DNA of 5,183 nt from the NCBI GenBank assembly GCA_030622375.1, contig JAUXGC010000098.1:1-5183 (forward strand). The letters run 5' to 3'. Source of the DNA: Sulfurovum sp. GTDB taxonomy: Bacteria > Campylobacterota > Campylobacteria > Campylobacterales > Sulfurovaceae. Both the position numbers and the translations under genes were made by a program. The notes below the pieces were generated by a model, which did not search any database, was not told the origin of the DNA, and saw nothing but the letters and a program-made list of their open reading frames with translations. Shown one piece after another: positions 793 through 5,074 of the stretch; the stretch's first letter is position 1, and each line of letters begins with the position of its first letter.

Positions 793-880
793 CAATAACT
801 ATTATTTTATACTCTCTAATATATTTTTGGTCTTTAAGTTTAGGGTCAGACATTGAAAATGCACTTTTGGTTTTTCTCAT
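785..880 (-). CDS. 31-residue micro-ORF with strong ribosome site, coupled to flippase
   Basis: A 31-codon frame from ATG (880-878) to TAA (787-785). I recognise no family. The peptide is charged (starts MRKTKSAFSMSDPK, ends IVIDE) with no membrane segment. It begins one base after the stop of the 32-residue ORF and ends inside the flippase start (8-bp overlap). The ribosome site AGGAGGG, 5 nt before the ATG, is the best Shine-Dalgarno in the window, which argues that ribosomes really load here. Codons 4-13 (KSAFSMSDPK) lie within the right-hand direct repeat. The same DNA in the other repeat copy reads KSAFSTPDPK in the matching frame, then V and a stop. So this may be a real peptide, a gene remnant, or just a ribosome-loading leader for the poorly initiated flippase. 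Coding status is uncertain. Confidence 0.4.
   Translation of the reverse strand: MRKTKSAFSMSDPKLKDQKYIREYKIIVIDE
839..868 (-). repeat. 30-bp direct repeat, copy 2 (downstream of ORF6N gene)
   Basis: On the minus strand this copy contains AAAAGTGCATTTTCAATG followed by TCTGACCCTAAA. It matches 1571-1600 at 28 of 30 positions, in the same orientation; the two differences are T for C. It lies within codons 4-13 of the 31-codon ORF. The two copies are 732 bp apart and bracket the ORF6N gene. The GGGTCAG core followed by TTGAAAAT (plus strand) reminds me of repeats near REP-associated tyrosine (Y1) transposase elements, but that is memory-based and unverified. Confidence 0.8.
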
Positions 881-881
881 A

Positions 882-980
882 CTAACCCTCCTTTCCTTTT
901 TTAATCTTCTTAACACTCCGACTCACTTTTGCAAAACCCAGATTGAATTCAAATTTTGTTTGTGTTGCTAGTATTTTCAT
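882..980 (-). pseudogene. 32-residue ORF: diverged copy of the ORF6N protein C-terminal tail
   Basis: A short frame from ATG (980-978) to TAG (884-882), overlapping the ORF6N gene stop by 4 bp (ATGA). Residues 8-24 align with residues 167-183 of the ORF6N protein: TKxExNLGFxKVSRxVK, 13 of 17 identical, followed in both by a lysine-rich end. No DNA-binding domain precedes it. The simplest reading is the surviving 3' end of a second ORF6N-type gene, or a tandem tail duplication that has since diverged. An alternative is a real basic micro-protein sharing a tail module with its neighbour. It has no strong Shine-Dalgarno (only AAGAAG nearby), so any translation would be coupled to the ORF6N gene. 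Confidence 0.5.
886..892 (-). promoter_or_regulatory. Strong Shine-Dalgarno (AGGAGGG) for the 31-codon ORF
   Basis: Read on the minus strand, AAAGGAAAGGAGGG (899-886) holds AGGAGGG 5 nt before ATG at 880. It sits inside the last codons of the preceding 32-residue ORF. The flippase start about 90 nt further on has no such site, so this is the likely entry point feeding the flippase. Confidence 0.6.
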
Positions 981-1555
981 GATTTATCTTCTTTGGATTT
1001 TTTAGTCTTTACAATACGGCTAACTTTGACAAACCCTAGATTCAACTCTATTTTTGTCTCAACTTCTGTCTCATCATCCTGTAGTTTTCTTATGGGTTCT
1101 ATATCTATAACTTTTTCTAGTAGTACATTCGATTTTTCTATTAATCCTAGTTGTTCTTCTTGTGTTTGGTTTTCATTTATTGAATTTAAATTTCTAGATA
1201 ACTGTTTTAAGTTTGCAAATGTTTCTATGATTTTGAGAGTCGTTTGTGTGGCTACTTTACTTTTTATTATAGTAGCCAACATATACAAACCTTTTTCTGT
1301 AAAAACTTTAGGGTTGACTGTAGAGTGCTTAAGCTTATTGAACCGGTCAAATTTTTTGACCAGTTCATTTTTTTCTTCTTTTGTGAGTTCAATTATATAT
1401 CCATCAGGAAATTTTTCAAGATTGTTAGATACTGCTTGATTAACCTCCTTGGTAGTTACATCATATAACTGTGCAACATCATTGTCAATCAGTACAACTT
1501 TATTCTTATAATTAATCAATTTACTTTCTAATGTTTCAAATTTTATTACTTCCAT
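977..1555 (-). CDS. ORF6N-domain (phage-type DNA-binding) protein
   Basis: This 192-residue protein has an N-terminal ORF6N domain at about residues 10-100. Diagnostic parts are VVLIDNDVAQLYDVTTKEVN (20-39), NLEKFPDGYIIELTKEE (45-61) and PKVFTEKGLYMLATIIKSK (82-100), followed by VATQTTLKIIETFANLKQLSR (101-121). ORF6N is a putative DNA-binding domain known from phage and mobile elements and common in bacterial islands; its biological role is poorly defined. Residues 125-160 are polar and probably helical or coiled. The end, residues 165-192, is a separate conserved-looking tail (TKIELNLGFVKVSR) rich in lysine, and it is repeated in the next ORF. The ribosome site AAAGGG lies 5 nt before the ATG. 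The start overlaps the 44-codon ORF by 10 bp, and the stop overlaps the next ORF by 4 bp. A DNA-binding protein inside a sugar operon is out of place. It could be an operon regulator or cargo of a small cassette flanked by the 30-bp repeats. Confidence 0.85.
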   Translation of the reverse strand: MEVIKFETLESKLINYKNKVVLIDNDVAQLYDVTTKEVNQAVSNNLEKFPDGYIIELTKEEKNELVKKFDRFNKLKHSTVNPKVFTEKGLYMLATIIKSKVATQTTLKIIETFANLKQLSRNLNSINENQTQEEQLGLIEKSNVLLEKVIDIEPIRKLQDDETEVETKIELNLGFVKVSRIVKTKKSKEDKS

Positions 1556-1680
1556 AGATGCCCTTTACACTTTAGGGTCAGGCGTTGAAAATGCACTTTT
1601 TCTAGAACAGTATCTAATACTACTGCTTCATAATAGTTCAAGTTTTCACCTTTTTGTATCTGTTCAAGTAACATATTCAT
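1546..1680 (-). CDS. 44-residue small ORF of unknown function between epimerase and ORF6N gene
   Basis: A 44-codon frame from ATG (1680-1678), which directly abuts the epimerase stop codon (0 bp gap), to TAA (1548-1546), overlapping the ORF6N start by 10 bp. AAAGG lies 8 nt before the ATG, inside the epimerase gene. I recognise no family. Residues 1-28 (MNMLLEQIQKGENLNYYEAV and on to LEK) look like a normal amphipathic helix-rich N-terminus. From residue 28 on, the frame runs through the 30-bp repeat and gives a sequence unlike the first part (VHFQRLTLKCKGHLWK). This suggests the 5' end of a once longer gene cut off where the repeat begins. The junction lies near 1600. It may still serve to carry ribosomes from the epimerase to the ORF6N gene. 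Confidence 0.4.
   Translation of the reverse strand: MNMLLEQIQKGENLNYYEAVVLDTVLEKVHFQRLTLKCKGHLWK
1571..1600 (-). repeat. 30-bp direct repeat, copy 1 (upstream of ORF6N gene)
   Basis: On the minus strand this copy contains AAAAGTGCATTTTCAACG followed by CCTGACCCTAAA, 28 of 30 identical to 839-868 and in the same orientation. In the 44-codon ORF it is read in a different frame from that used by the other copy. In the matching frame it gives RKSAFSTPDPKV and then a stop. Frame use therefore differs between copies, which favours a DNA-level repeat over a conserved protein motif. Confidence 0.8.
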
Positions 1681-2739
1681 CTACAGTACCTTTGCATAAA
1701 ACTCTCTATACCACTTCACAAACTCACTTATGCCATCCGCCAAAGCAGTATCTGGTTTATAGCCATAGTCTTCCATCAGCCCACTTATATTTGCGTGAGT
1801 AGAGAGTACATCTCCATCTTGCATAGGCAACATCTCTTTTTTGGCAACTTTTCCTAAAGCTTTCTCTATGGTTTCTATGAACTCCATAAGAGGCAAATGT
1901 TTACTGTTGCCGATGTTGTAGAGTCTGTAGGGTGCAGATGAGCTGTCTGTTTTTGGGTTTTTGGCATCCCATTTTGGGTTTGGCTTTGCTGGATGGTCTA
2001 TCACTTTTATGATGCCATCTACTATATCGTCTATGTAAGTAAAATCTCTACTCATTTTACCATTGTTAAAAACTTTTATAGGTTTGTCGTTTAGTATGGC
2101 ATTGGTAAAGAGCATAGGAGCCATGTCAGGTCTTCCCCATGGTCCGTACACGGTGAAAAATCTTAGTCCTGTTGTACTTATGTCATATAGATGACTATAG
2201 CTATGTGCCATCATCTCGTTTGATTTTTTTGTAGCAGCATATAGACTTACGGGATGATCTGTAGTATCTGATGTTTTAAATGGTTGTGACCTGTTAAGTC
2301 CATAAATGGATGAACTTGAAGCGTATGCTAGGTTTTTCACCCCATTATGGCGACACCCTTCCAGTATATTTAGAAATCCTAACATATTACTCTCTATGTA
2401 CGCGTGAGGATTTTCAAGAGAGTAACGCACACCTGCTTGTGCTGCTAAGTGCATAACCGCATCAAACTTTTCCTCTTTAAAGAGCTTCTCTATGCCCTCT
2501 CTGTCTGCAATATCAAGCTTAATGAACTTATGTTTAGGGTACACAGTTGAAATAGTAAAAGCATTGGAAGATACATTCTCTTTTTTAACCCCAAGCTCTT
2601 TTAGACGACCATATTTTAGATTTACATCATAATAGTCATTTATGTTGTCTAGTCCTACAACTTCATCGCCACGCTCTAGTAATTTTTTTGCTAAGTGGTA
2701 GCCTATGAACCCTGCCGTACCTGTAACCAATACTTTCAA
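1681..2739 (-). CDS. UDP-glucuronate 4-epimerase-type NAD-dependent epimerase (CapI-like)
   Basis: An extended short-chain dehydrogenase/reductase, 352 residues from my chosen start. It should interconvert UDP-glucuronate and UDP-galacturonate in the cytoplasm for capsule, O-antigen or LPS synthesis. Seen in the sequence: Rossmann motif TGTAGFIG (6-13), LDNINDYYDVNLK (31-43), the HLAAQAGVRYS segment (97-107), catalytic serine region ASSSSIYG (140-147), YAATK (167-171; Tyr and Lys of the catalytic triad), and RFFTVYGPWGRPDMAP (193-208). The last is characteristic of the GlcA 4-epimerase/CapI group. I chose TTG at 2739 because it gives MKVLVTG at the usual family N-terminus, has AAGGGG 7 nt upstream, and overlaps the galE stop by 4 bp (TTGA). 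In-frame ATG codons at 2787 and 2769 would add 16 or 10 residues encoded inside galE and look unlikely. The exact substrate (GlcA versus a related uronic acid) is inferred. Confidence 0.9.
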   Translation of the reverse strand: MKVLVTGTAGFIGYHLAKKLLERGDEVVGLDNINDYYDVNLKYGRLKELGVKKENVSSNAFTISTVYPKHKFIKLDIADREGIEKLFKEEKFDAVMHLAAQAGVRYSLENPHAYIESNMLGFLNILEGCRHNGVKNLAYASSSSIYGLNRSQPFKTSDTTDHPVSLYAATKKSNEMMAHSYSHLYDISTTGLRFFTVYGPWGRPDMAPMLFTNAILNDKPIKVFNNGKMSRDFTYIDDIVDGIIKVIDHPAKPNPKWDAKNPKTDSSSAPYRLYNIGNSKHLPLMEFIETIEKALGKVAKKEMLPMQDGDVLSTHANISGLMEDYGYKPDTALADGISEFVKWYREFYAKVL

Positions 2740-3773
2740 AGCTCGACCCCTTTTAGAGTCTTTTCCCATGCTAAAGTCGTCTGGCAAATCACCTCTAAAT
2801 CATCATACTTTGGTTTCCACTTTGTATCATTTAGTATTTTTCTGTTGTCTGCTATGAGCAAAGCTGGGTCGCCTGCACGTCTCTCTTTGCTCTCAACTCT
2901 AAAGTCAACACCACTTATTTTTTTCATAGTATCTAGTACCTTTTTCACAGAAAAACCTCTACTGTAACCCACATTAAACACATCACTTTCATTGTCTTCA
3001 AGATACTCCAAAGCTTCAATGTGTGCTTGTGCCAAATCTACTACATGTATGTAGTCACGAATGCCTGTGCCGTCAGGCGTAGGGTAATCTTCTCCAAATA
3101 TATACATTTCATCTCGTTTCCCCGTAGCAGTTTGAGCAGCTACTTTAACAAGAAGTGTAGCATTTGCAGTAGATTGACCTATGAGATTGTCGGGGTCAGA
3201 GCCTGCTACATTGAAGTATCTGAGTGTTACATATTTGAACTCAGTAGTTACTAAAGCTACATCTTGCAAAATGCGTTCACTCATAAGCTTACTCATACCG
3301 TAAGGGTTTATGGGGTTTGTAGGGTCACTCTCTTTGAGCCCACTCTCCAAGCCAACTATGCTGGAGTCAGGCTCTCCATACACTGCAGCAGTAGATGAAA
3401 AGATAAACCTTTTCACTCCATTTTGCGTAGCATACTTTATGAGGTTGGTGGTATTTACTGTGTTATTTAGGTAGTATTTGAGTGGATTTTCAACACTCTC
3501 TGGCACCACAATAGAAGCAGCAAAATGCATAATGGCATCAAAACTGTTTTTCTCCATAAGTGTTTTGATTTTATCAAAATTACTGAGGTCTTCTTCTATA
3601 AAATTCAAAGTTTTATTGTGTGTCTGTGCTATGGAGATAAGTCTATCTACAGTATCTTGAAATCCAGTAACAAGATTATCAAGAACCGTCACATTATGCT
3701 CGCTCTCTTCTAGTAAAACCTTAACAACATGACTACCAATATACCCTGCTCCACCTGTCACTAAAATATGCAA
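2736..3773 (-). CDS. galE: UDP-glucose 4-epimerase
   Basis: This 345-residue enzyme interconverts UDP-glucose and UDP-galactose using bound NAD, feeding galactose into surface glycans. Full length for the family (about 330-350). Visible motifs: Rossmann GGAGYIGSH (7-15), AASIVVPESVENP (85-97), FSSTAAVYGEP (125-135) with the catalytic Ser/Thr, NPYGMSK (156-162) with catalytic Tyr158 and Lys162, RYFNVAGSDP (185-194), DGTGIRDYIHVVDLA (234-248), VFNVGYSRGFSV (265-276) and RRAGDPA (298-304). The start codon is TTG (3773-3771), with AGGA 6 nt upstream (3783-3780); no ATG fits the conserved N-terminus. It is the first gene of the minus-strand operon and sits about 30 bp behind a TATAAT box. Its TGA overlaps the TTG start of the next epimerase, so the two enzymes are probably made in coupled amounts. 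Confidence 0.95.
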   Translation of the reverse strand: MHILVTGGAGYIGSHVVKVLLEESEHNVTVLDNLVTGFQDTVDRLISIAQTHNKTLNFIEEDLSNFDKIKTLMEKNSFDAIMHFAASIVVPESVENPLKYYLNNTVNTTNLIKYATQNGVKRFIFSSTAAVYGEPDSSIVGLESGLKESDPTNPINPYGMSKLMSERILQDVALVTTEFKYVTLRYFNVAGSDPDNLIGQSTANATLLVKVAAQTATGKRDEMYIFGEDYPTPDGTGIRDYIHVVDLAQAHIEALEYLEDNESDVFNVGYSRGFSVKKVLDTMKKISGVDFRVESKERRAGDPALLIADNRKILNDTKWKPKYDDLEVICQTTLAWEKTLKGVEL

Positions 3774-3896: not shown

Positions 3897-3947
3897 ATGA
3901 AAGAAGAATTGAAAGAAATAAATGAAATATTTTCAAAACTCGTTTAA
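3897..3947 (+). CDS. 16-residue leader peptide ORF, coupled to lipoprotein
   Basis: MKEELKEINEIFSKLV, from ATG 3897 to TAA 3945-3947. AAAAGGA lies 7 nt upstream, a good ribosome site. The stop overlaps the lipoprotein start as TAATG, and the lipoprotein itself has no Shine-Dalgarno in the preceding 20 nt. Translation of this peptide is thus probably what brings ribosomes to the lipoprotein gene. The peptide is a short charged amphipathic helix by composition, without the runs of one amino acid that mark classic attenuator leaders. Whether it has a function of its own cannot be told. Confidence 0.55.
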   Translation: MKEELKEINEIFSKLV

Positions 3948-4543
3948 TGCTTAAATTACTTATTATATCCACCCTACTTCTTCTGCTAAGTGGTTGCGGT
4001 ATGTCAAATTTAACATACAATAATCACCAACTCATGCTACAAATAAACAAGAAGTATTTACGGCTCGATGGAGAGTTGATTAAAGTACGCAAAGATAGCT
4101 TTGGAAGCCTTTTTATCACCCAAAAGATACTTCGTTTAGATAACGGCAACATGACTGTCTATGAAGATGCAATAAGTGATTTTCTTTATGAGTTTGAGCC
4201 AAGCATTACAAGAAGCATAAAAGTCATTTTTGATGCTAGAAAGGTCATCATTGCTTATGCAAAAAATAGCCTTTATGCCTATCAACTTATTCTACAAGAT
4301 GGAAAAATACTCAATGTCATTGCCCAGCAAAGTGGTTTTCAACGTCTTAAAATGGTATATGGTATGGATTCTACACAACTTGATCAAATGCTAAAAAAGC
4401 TAGATATCAATACAAAAAGTGTTTACTATAGGGATGTAATAGTTACAAAAAATCAAAATAAAGCAATATTAAGCAGATGGAGTGTCCAAAATGTACACTT
4501 CTTTCCACTCATCGTTCCTCTACTAAGACTTATTGGAATGTAG
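3947..4543 (+). CDS. Putative lipoprotein of unknown function
   Basis: A 198-residue protein with a clear lipoprotein signal: Lys3, a hydrophobic run (residues 4-14, LLIISTLLLLL) and lipobox LSGC with Cys17 as the lipidation site. The mature part (18-198) should be attached to a membrane facing the periplasm. I recognise no domain in it. It appears to be mostly beta/alpha mixed, with a Tyr- and Lys-rich middle. It ends in a hydrophobic stretch (FFPLIVPLLRLIGM, 185-198) that could be a second membrane contact or a buried strand. There is no cysteine after Cys17. The start at the TAATG overlap with the leader ORF is supported by the signal peptide beginning there. The gene lies 30 bp upstream of a membrane-anchored cytochrome in the same direction, so a shared envelope role is possible but not shown. 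Confidence 0.8.
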   Translation: MLKLLIISTLLLLLSGCGMSNLTYNNHQLMLQINKKYLRLDGELIKVRKDSFGSLFITQKILRLDNGNMTVYEDAISDFLYEFEPSITRSIKVIFDARKVIIAYAKNSLYAYQLILQDGKILNVIAQQSGFQRLKMVYGMDSTQLDQMLKKLDINTKSVYYRDVIVTKNQNKAILSRWSVQNVHFFPLIVPLLRLIGM

Positions 4544-4573: not shown

Positions 4574-5074
4574 ATGAAAAAAACCCTACCCTATATAGCC
4601 ATTATCATCGTTCTAATCTATGCTCTGTACAATGCCAAATTCCGTGACTTGAAAAAAATAGATACGCACACAAATATACACTATAAAGAGCATATAGAAA
4701 CACACAAAACCACCCACTATGAAGATGAACTCTCCCAGATAAATACAGATGAATATACTAAACAGTACATCATACGAGTGATTAATCATGGGTCCAATAT
4801 ACTAGATTTTAAAGGTGGAGTGATGGAGGCTGGTTTTGCTTCTGTGGATGATGCAGAAAAGATTGCCTGTTATACTTTAGAACTCTCTGGTAAAAAATGT
4901 AAAGACTCTTATGAAAAAAATGCTGCTATGTTTTATACGAGTATCTGTGGTGGTTGTCATGGAGATGACGGAAAAGGTTTAGGCGGTACCTGCCCAAATC
5001 TTACCAAAAGCAAATTGTTAGGTATTGTAAAAAGAGAAAACTTCTTAAAAGATATGATTCAGAGATCTCAATAG
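4574..5074 (+). CDS. Membrane-anchored monoheme c-type cytochrome with histidine ladder
   Basis: A 166-residue protein with an uncleaved-looking N-terminal anchor (LPYIAIIIVLIYALY, 5-19), so the rest should face the periplasm. A single heme c site, CGGCH (125-129), is followed by GDDGKGLGGTCPNLT (130-144), typical of class I cytochrome c. Only about 37 residues follow the motif, with one Met (161), so the usual C-terminal Met-ligand part is short or absent. Before the heme site, residues 64-106 (QYIIRVINHG, FKGGVMEAGF, DDAEKIACYTLEL) resemble the C-terminal half of a cytochrome c domain, including a candidate axial Met84. Residues 32-48 carry His at 32, 36, 40, 44 and 48. Extra cysteines are at 99, 109 and 140. 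No Shine-Dalgarno precedes the ATG, and a stop (4562-4564) closes the frame upstream. Likely role: small electron carrier or sensor at the membrane; partner unknown. Confidence 0.8.
   Translation: MKKTLPYIAIIIVLIYALYNAKFRDLKKIDTHTNIHYKEHIETHKTTHYEDELSQINTDEYTKQYIIRVINHGSNILDFKGGVMEAGFASVDDAEKIACYTLELSGKKCKDSYEKNAAMFYTSICGGCHGDDGKGLGGTCPNLTKSKLLGIVKRENFLKDMIQRSQ

Follow-up and report, generated by a model that had tools for sequence, protein, structure and literature searches.

Two copies of a 30-bp sequence flank an ORF6N gene within a run of surface-glycan genes of a Sulfurovum genome. This arrangement raises the question whether the repeats and the gene form one mobile unit, as assumed by the original prediction, which read the segment as a possible small cassette, or whether they reached the same site separately. 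To answer it, three things have to be established: to which element the repeat belongs, where related ORF6N genes are found, and how the copies and the gene are arranged relative to each other.

The repeat pair and its gene context

The window, i.e. the whole stretch of 5,183 nucleotides that was analysed, is one contig (C69) of an assembly of 1.43 Mb in 202 contigs that is 76% complete. Its glycan genes form a same-strand run on the minus strand, which starts with a gene for a galE-like epimerase (2736-3773; named by reading, Pfam Epimerase), followed by a gene for a capI-type NAD-dependent epimerase (1681-2736), which lies upstream of the ORF6N gene in the operon. Next come a 44-aa ORF (1546-1680), the ORF6N gene (977-1555), which encodes 192 aa with the domain PF10543, an ORF6N tail piece (MKILATQTKFEFNLGFAKVSRSVKKIKKGKEG; 882-980), a micro-ORF (MRKTKSAFSMSDPKLKDQKYIREYKIIVIDE; 785-880) and finally a polysaccharide flippase gene (Polysacc_synt; 1-795), which lies downstream in the operon and is open at the contig edge. 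Beyond the glycan genes, the plus strand carries a lipoprotein-like ORF (assigned by eye) without a Pfam match (3947-4543) and an ORF matched only weakly, under the cut-off, by cytochrome c (4574-5074), and a short run of TA dinucleotides is found near the contig end (5150-5175). For the 44-aa ORF, no convincing relative was found among 150 genomes when the 28 aa up to the repeat start were used as query (own genome E=6.6e-14, next best 0.075).

Repeat copy 1 (839-868, plus strand) lies inside the micro-ORF on the minus strand, while copy 2 (1571-1600, plus strand) stops 15 nt short of the ORF6N start codon on its upstream side and is entered by the 44-aa ORF. As originally described, the copies have the same orientation, are identical at 28 of 30 positions (93%), are spaced 732 bp apart and enclose the ORF6N gene. 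The observation that the small ORFs crossing them use different frames was also reproduced, with KSAFSMSDPK being encoded at 839-868 and EKVHFQRLTLK at 1571-1600. Likewise, no Y1 or other transposase domain was detected in the eight window ORFs scanned, in agreement with the statement that the window is free of transposase genes. On the minus strand, copy 2 can be read as KSAFSTPDPKV followed by a stop codon, which resembles the end of the TIRYT protein described below (KSVYSTPDPKGN). In a repeat search, the match between the copies extended no further than 30 bp, which fits an independent arrival of the two copies and also an old shared event.

The original prediction proposed a search for the repeat in the host and in related genomes. 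At up to three mismatches, the motif occurs at six places of the own assembly, namely two in the window, three on contig C101 and one on contig C102, and the reversed control pattern occurs at none. Eleven of 150 genomes, the own one included, carry the motif at up to one mismatch, and the control gave no match in any of the 150 rows. Because of these numbers, the window repeats are not attributed to chance. The pattern named in advance as speaking against a cassette, with the repeat being confined to this locus and the ORF6N gene being always present in related genomes, is not what was found.

The repeat as the end of a Y1 transposase element

The motif that flanks the ORF6N gene in the window bounds a transposase gene on contig C101 of the same genome (C101:1515-2336, plus strand). 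There, one copy is located 5' of the gene (C101:1485-1511, plus strand) and a second one covers its last codons at the 3' end (C101:2298-2324, minus strand), so that both form an inverted pair. Further copies were found by motif search on C101 (1245-1271, minus strand) and on C102 (88-114). The encoded protein is a putative Y1 (HuH) transposase according to its sequence, with a visible H-x-H motif (NHFHLL), the Pfam domain Y1_Tnp (PF01797; 2.3e-14) and a C-terminal HTH_3 domain (1.5e-5, above the cut-off). The only PDB sequence match at E values up to 1 was a chain named TnpArep (4er8, E 0.0047). The suggestion that a Y1-type, RAYT-like transposase could act on the repeat was thus well founded.

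Homologs of the C101 transposase at E 1e-30 or better are encoded in 60 of the 150 genomes. For 30 transposase loci, fetched from a longer list of places, the presence of the motif was compared at up to 6 mismatches in 22 positions. An inverted repeat pair was present at all 12 loci with at least 62% identity to the C101 transposase, with C101 itself being one of them, and at none of the 18 loci below 53% identity; among the latter, a single 6-mismatch site was seen in L109 and in L114, and the 5' flank of L113 is missing. At the 12 loci, the repeats are positioned at -58 to -70 and at +745 to +770 relative to the start codon. Because the pair is found at all of the close and none of the distant loci, we regard the motif as the terminal repeat that is cognate to this transposase clade. 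Apart from these pairs at transposase genes, the motif is dispersed as solo copies and, in genome G096, forms three inverted doublets with a spacing of about 70 bp. The window repeat is therefore the terminal repeat of a TIRYT element, a TIRtron, of which a full copy is present elsewhere in the same genome, and both window copies would be solo terminal repeats of this element.

The full TIRtron of the own genome (L012:896-2336) is located between nadA- and nadC-like genes, both named by reading. In genome G021 (L091), a transposase with 82% identity, whose frame is broken by stops, precedes the same nadC-like gene, with its 3' end reaching the nadC start. A second gene neighborhood involves pabB, for which five loci were grouped (L095, L097, L100, L044 and C102 of the own genome, G000). 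In L095, L097 and L100 (genomes G017, G038 and G046), the TIRYT frame continues without a stop into pabB, resulting in frames of 572-587 aa, and at the place in G038 (L034), Y1_Tnp and Chorismate_bind are found in one frame. The pabB gene of the own genome on C102 (L013:153-1142) begins with MARKPRIDLFSTPDTF. This start looks like the first and the last transposase codons with the middle deleted, and thus like an internally deleted copy of the element.

Relation to known repeat families

TIRtrons have been described as Y1 transposases with terminal inverted repeats (TIRs), many of them bearing the sequence GGGGWSAS, of which single or dimeric copies are dispersed in the genomes (Di Nocera et al. 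2013, PMC3733652). The respective transposases, TIRYT, have been classified as subclass 2.1 of TnpA-Y1 with a C-terminal HTH (Quentin et al. 2018, PMC6006769). Tyrosine transposases have been reported to be encoded in Sulfurovum NBC37-1 (PMC3733652), and the word Sulfurimonas is absent from the main texts of both articles. The element analysed here resembles TIRtrons in that its Y1 transposase has a C-terminal HTH, its inverted repeats are located at similar distances, with the 3' repeat on C101 overlapping the gene, and single as well as dimeric TIR copies are dispersed. The copies found here carry a sequence similar to GGGGWSAS, [A/G]GGGTCAG. The exact consensus (GGGGTCAG) occurs in copies of G068, G065 and G141, and both window copies read AGGGTCAG, with one mismatch to GGGGWSAS. 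Two features differ from the published TIRtrons: the TIR type is tied here to its transposase clade by co-occurrence at the 12 close loci, and in three genomes pabB is read in continuation of the transposase frame.

In REP and REPIN elements, a Y1 transposase (RAYT) is associated with short repeats that are scattered as singlets and inverted doublets (Bertels and Rainey 2011, PMC3116915). The repeat analysed here is likewise short, dispersed, Y1-linked and present as singlets and inverted doublets; it differs by its modest copy number and by the simple inverted pair that its copies form around the gene. Six strands were folded as DNA, namely the window copies on both strands and the two C101 ends, and none of these single repeats formed a hairpin beyond that of shuffled sequences (z -0.05 to 0.71). 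The GT[AG]G foot (GTAG foot) of REPs is not carried by the copies, which have GGGTCAG. Since a hairpin beyond shuffles and a GTAG foot are both missing, the repeat is not a REP, and this identity was rejected. As a single copy has no hairpin, its function as a recognition signal is only putative.

The ORF6N gene and its clade

The protein encoded between the repeats is a clear member of the ORF6N family (PF10543, E=1.6e-26, 92.8 bits compared to a gathering score of 27.8). Its closest named relative in the scan of genome contigs, with 81% identity, is from a Sulfurimonas MAG. A clade around this protein was defined with a profile of seven proteins (A2), which scores its members above about 170 bits and other ORF6N genes at up to 158 bits. 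This clade comprises 23 loci, counting the window, L074 and the partial L064. Glycan genes are neighbors at 18 of these loci, compared to 2 of 32 loci of lower-scoring ORF6N hits (Fisher p=3.4e-8), with loci being treated as independent even though some share a junction type. The calls for individual loci were made by reading the neighboring sequences, and they agree with family tallies of 42 and 63 neighbors, in which the 25 commonest of 34 and 55 Pfam families, respectively, were considered. The premise of the original prediction that ORF6N genes are foreign to glycan synthesis is thus contradicted for this clade.

Among the controls, L129 has a clade-like start (MNIIKIEEI) and a glycan neighbor and was nevertheless counted as a control. 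L075, which is on the same contig as L163, the distant and unclassed loci L076 and L077 and six loci on viral contigs were left out of the comparison. The five clade loci without a counted glycan neighbor are L122, L064, L168, L125 and L059; in L122 and L064, the ORF6N gene adjoins a MarR-like gene, which we take to be EPS-associated and which was not counted as a glycan gene. The glycan neighbors of the clade encode capI-type epimerases, nucleotide-sugar dehydrogenases, Wzm, Wzt, NeuB, cytidylyltransferases, RmlB, RmlD, fucose synthases, flippases and others, and the clade genes often sit start-to-stop between co-translated genes. In the window, the gaps around the ORF6N gene are 125 and 184 bp, which is a looser packing than in most of its clade, so that the repeats could have had a role in its placement.

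Comparison of the window gene with that of L074 yielded a pN of 0.11 and a pS of 0.77, with synonymous sites being saturated; by these values, the window gene is under purifying selection. The structural model of the protein has a mean pLDDT of 76.9. Its nearest predicted viral folds in a Foldseek search bear names such as KilA-N, regulatory protein or antirepressor, with weak matches (best E 1.1e-4, TM 0.43). No PDB fold was found with the model at E 0.001 or better, and a PDB search with the ORF6N profile gave two chance-like hits (E 0.1 and 0.24). The gene is thus predicted to encode a DNA-binding in-operon regulator. Its protein resembles ORF6N, KilA-N and phage antirepressor proteins in having an N-terminal ORF6N domain above the gathering score in addition to these predicted viral folds; its clade differs from such phage proteins by being short (about 190 aa), by its own conserved C-terminal tail and by being found mostly beside bacterial glycan genes in the loci seen. 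Six viral contigs hold ORF6N relatives with 42-49% identity. A literature search for ORF6N together with polysaccharide led to a passage on the N-terminal part of a Klebsiella protein named ORF6 and to a phage paper, and a search with Sulfurimonas found nothing.

Several ORF6N genes deviate from the usual organization. In L067 and L127, clade genes are shortened by internal deletions of the same kind, with ETFAKV being joined to SRS(I/V)KKIKK and FAKV being common to both ends. The 430-aa frame of L129, which is located in a glycan locus, begins with an ORF6N-like N-terminus (MNIIKIEEIKELI) that is possibly fused to a second domain. The best hit of the profile (P0001) is a 304-aa protein with ORF6N and PF09669, presumably a phage Rha-type regulator domain, and may link the clade to phage regulators.

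Insertions at gene junctions of glycan operons

For the junction of wzm and wzt, both genes were seen in 25 of 30 loci; they are adjacent in 16 of these, with gaps of -4 to 12, and separated by other sequence in 9. In L169 and L170, the junction holds an ORF6N gene of the clade, and in L171, which encodes a Wzm with 93% identity, it is empty. Between L171 and L169, the flanks align with 88% and 84% identity; the insert enclosed by them measures 546 bp, with an overlap of 4 bp, and consists solely of the ORF6N open reading frame. Between L171 and L170, the flanks align with 84% and 77% identity around 569 bp, and the ORF6N frame of L170 overlaps the start of wzt by the usual ATGA. With this clean empty site in a relative, the notion that ORF6N is an inserted gene gains support; the site is located at another junction and has no repeat, so that the support does not extend to the repeats as cassette ends.

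Other genes occupy the same junction. Genes for four-helix proteins of the IVP type are found there in L173 (below the Pfam cut-off), L174, L179 and L180 and also in L172, where no wzt was seen. Further occupants are an AlbA_2 gene (L182) and a MNT/HepT pair (L194), while L176 has a gene-free stretch of 174 bp at this junction. At the junction of ugd and capI, an ORF6N gene is present in L074 and absent from L200, L202, L204 and L206, with flanks of 69-77% identity. In L209, an AlbA_2-like gene (assigned by eye) follows 2 bp after capI and is of the same kind as the wzm-wzt occupant of L182. A literature search for four-helix-bundle or intervening-sequence proteins together with glycan terms found nothing.

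These arrangements suggest a far-reaching idea, which we put forward as speculative and on the whole doubtful. Junctions of glycan operons might be docking sites for exchangeable bare-ORF genes, such as antirepressor-like ORF6N, IVP four-helix, AlbA_2 and MNT/HepT genes, which would insert start-to-stop between co-translated genes, bringing along neither flanking DNA nor repeats, by a dedicated and so far unrecognised route, and which would regulate or stabilise the surface-glycan locus that harbors them.

The tail piece between the repeats

The stretch at 882-980 was originally regarded as a copy of the tail of the adjacent ORF6N gene. It is indeed tail-like, with 78% identity over 27 aa to the ORF6N tail of L058 and 73% over 26 aa to that of L057. 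The tail of the window gene itself is a poorer match (71% over 17 aa). Given this closer similarity to ORF6N proteins from elsewhere, the piece would rather be the remnant of a second, different ORF6N gene. The first codons of the tail piece (MKILATQT) resemble the start of capI-type epimerases (MKILVTGT), as it is found at the junction of ORF6N and capI in L074. Homology between the ORF6N genes of the window and L074 begins 1 base before the start codon and stops 14 bases past the stop codon; these last 14 bases resemble the capI start, and the remainder of the tail piece resembles another ORF6N tail. The capI-start-like stretch and the second ORF6N tail would thus represent deletion debris, with the match being short.

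Origin of the repeat pair

If the repeats, the ORF6N gene and the tail piece moved as one unit in trans, the direct repeats would serve as left and right ends of one strand. Such a cassette would be in line with the presence, in the own genome, of the transposase to which the repeat is cognate, with the location of the ORF6N gene and debris between the two copies and with the insertion of members of the ORF6N clade elsewhere. In IS200/IS605 Y1 elements, two hairpins or ends of one DNA strand are used, and for this reason the cassette keeps a small probability. The ends are, however, inverted at all 12 close transposase loci and in the three doublets of G096, and the window pair is direct. Moreover, the repeat is absent from the 22 other clade loci (69,423 bases, searched at up to 6 mismatches in 22 positions). 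In 24 repeat-bearing loci, 18 neighboring repeat pairs were counted at up to 4 mismatches in 22 positions, 9 of them being convergent, 5 direct and 4 divergent. Besides the window, direct pairs occur in G068 (325 bp apart, without an ORF of 60 aa between them), G065 (30 bp), G017 (39 bp) and G050 (192 bp, with a 57-aa transposase remnant between them). As none of these four encloses an intact gene, a direct pair needs no cargo. In G096 (C54; L052 1-1131), two convergent repeats 1.1 kb apart surround a 196-aa non-transposase ORF, and the left one of them, at the start of the contig, already forms half of a separate, decayed doublet. Neither a repeat-bounded empty site nor a locus at which a single repeat stands without the ORF6N gene was found; in the 30 capI loci compared, the one of the window included, no capI gene is directly followed by the flippase of the window to give a comparable junction. 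Accordingly, no empty site is at hand for either window repeat, and we infer the insertion of each from the distribution of the repeats only. The cassette with the repeats as its ends was rejected as the leading reading because of the direct orientation of the pair and the absence of the repeat from the other clade loci.

The strongest rival, improbable as it is, is the decay of TIRtrons at this junction. The pair would be left over from one or two decayed elements that lost the transposase gene, and the ORF6N gene would have entered earlier or later by unrelated recombination. Precedents are the decayed element of G050 with its single transposase piece and, on C102 of the own genome, an apparent copy with an internal deletion that precedes pabB, and the minus strand of copy 2 itself resembles the C-terminus of the transposase (KSAFSTPDPK). 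Against such a decay, no other transposase sequence was found in the window, and the direct orientation of the ends would require one inversion or two elements. The RecA-type duplication named as another option in the original prediction, with a tandemly duplicated ORF6N region that is bounded by the repeats and to whose duplicated portion the tail copy belongs, would explain that the repeats are direct and that tail-like sequence is present twice. It is disfavored by the existence of the 30-bp sequence as an independent dispersed family, by a repeat match that is no longer than 30 bp and by the tail piece being less similar to the local ORF6N protein than to others, and is very improbable.

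In the favored reading, to which we give a probability of roughly three in four, the repeats are TIR copies of a TIRtron, the complete element and its transposase gene being located on another contig of the same genome; they likely result from two separate single-end insertions in trans, one to each side of the ORF6N gene, and this gene, with its predicted product being a DNA-binding regulator, was probably not carried by them. Since related bacteria carry this kind of gene between sugar-coat genes without repeats, the two ends likely landed separately. By analogy with what has been described for its relatives, the C101 transposase would move single ends in trans by single-strand cutting, and two copies would have arrived independently at the window junction. 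The ORF6N gene would have come to the operon along a route of its own, namely as a bare ORF inserted at a gene-gene junction, as suggested by the empty site for two other members of the clade. Subsequently, the junction would have collected debris in the form of the second ORF6N tail and the two transposon ends. Within the operon, the ORF6N protein may serve as a regulator in the manner of phage antirepressors, to which its model bears a resemblance.

Implications

An orphan 30-bp repeat could be assigned to a transposase family by the co-occurrence of end and enzyme, which removes a likely false cassette. The surprising part is the junction insertions, which rest on few empty sites: the same surface-polysaccharide junction has no insert in one genome, and in two relatives it is occupied by exactly one foreign gene, complete and regulator-like, which is a testable pattern. 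If the route is real, operons would gain genes without breaking the translation of downstream genes.
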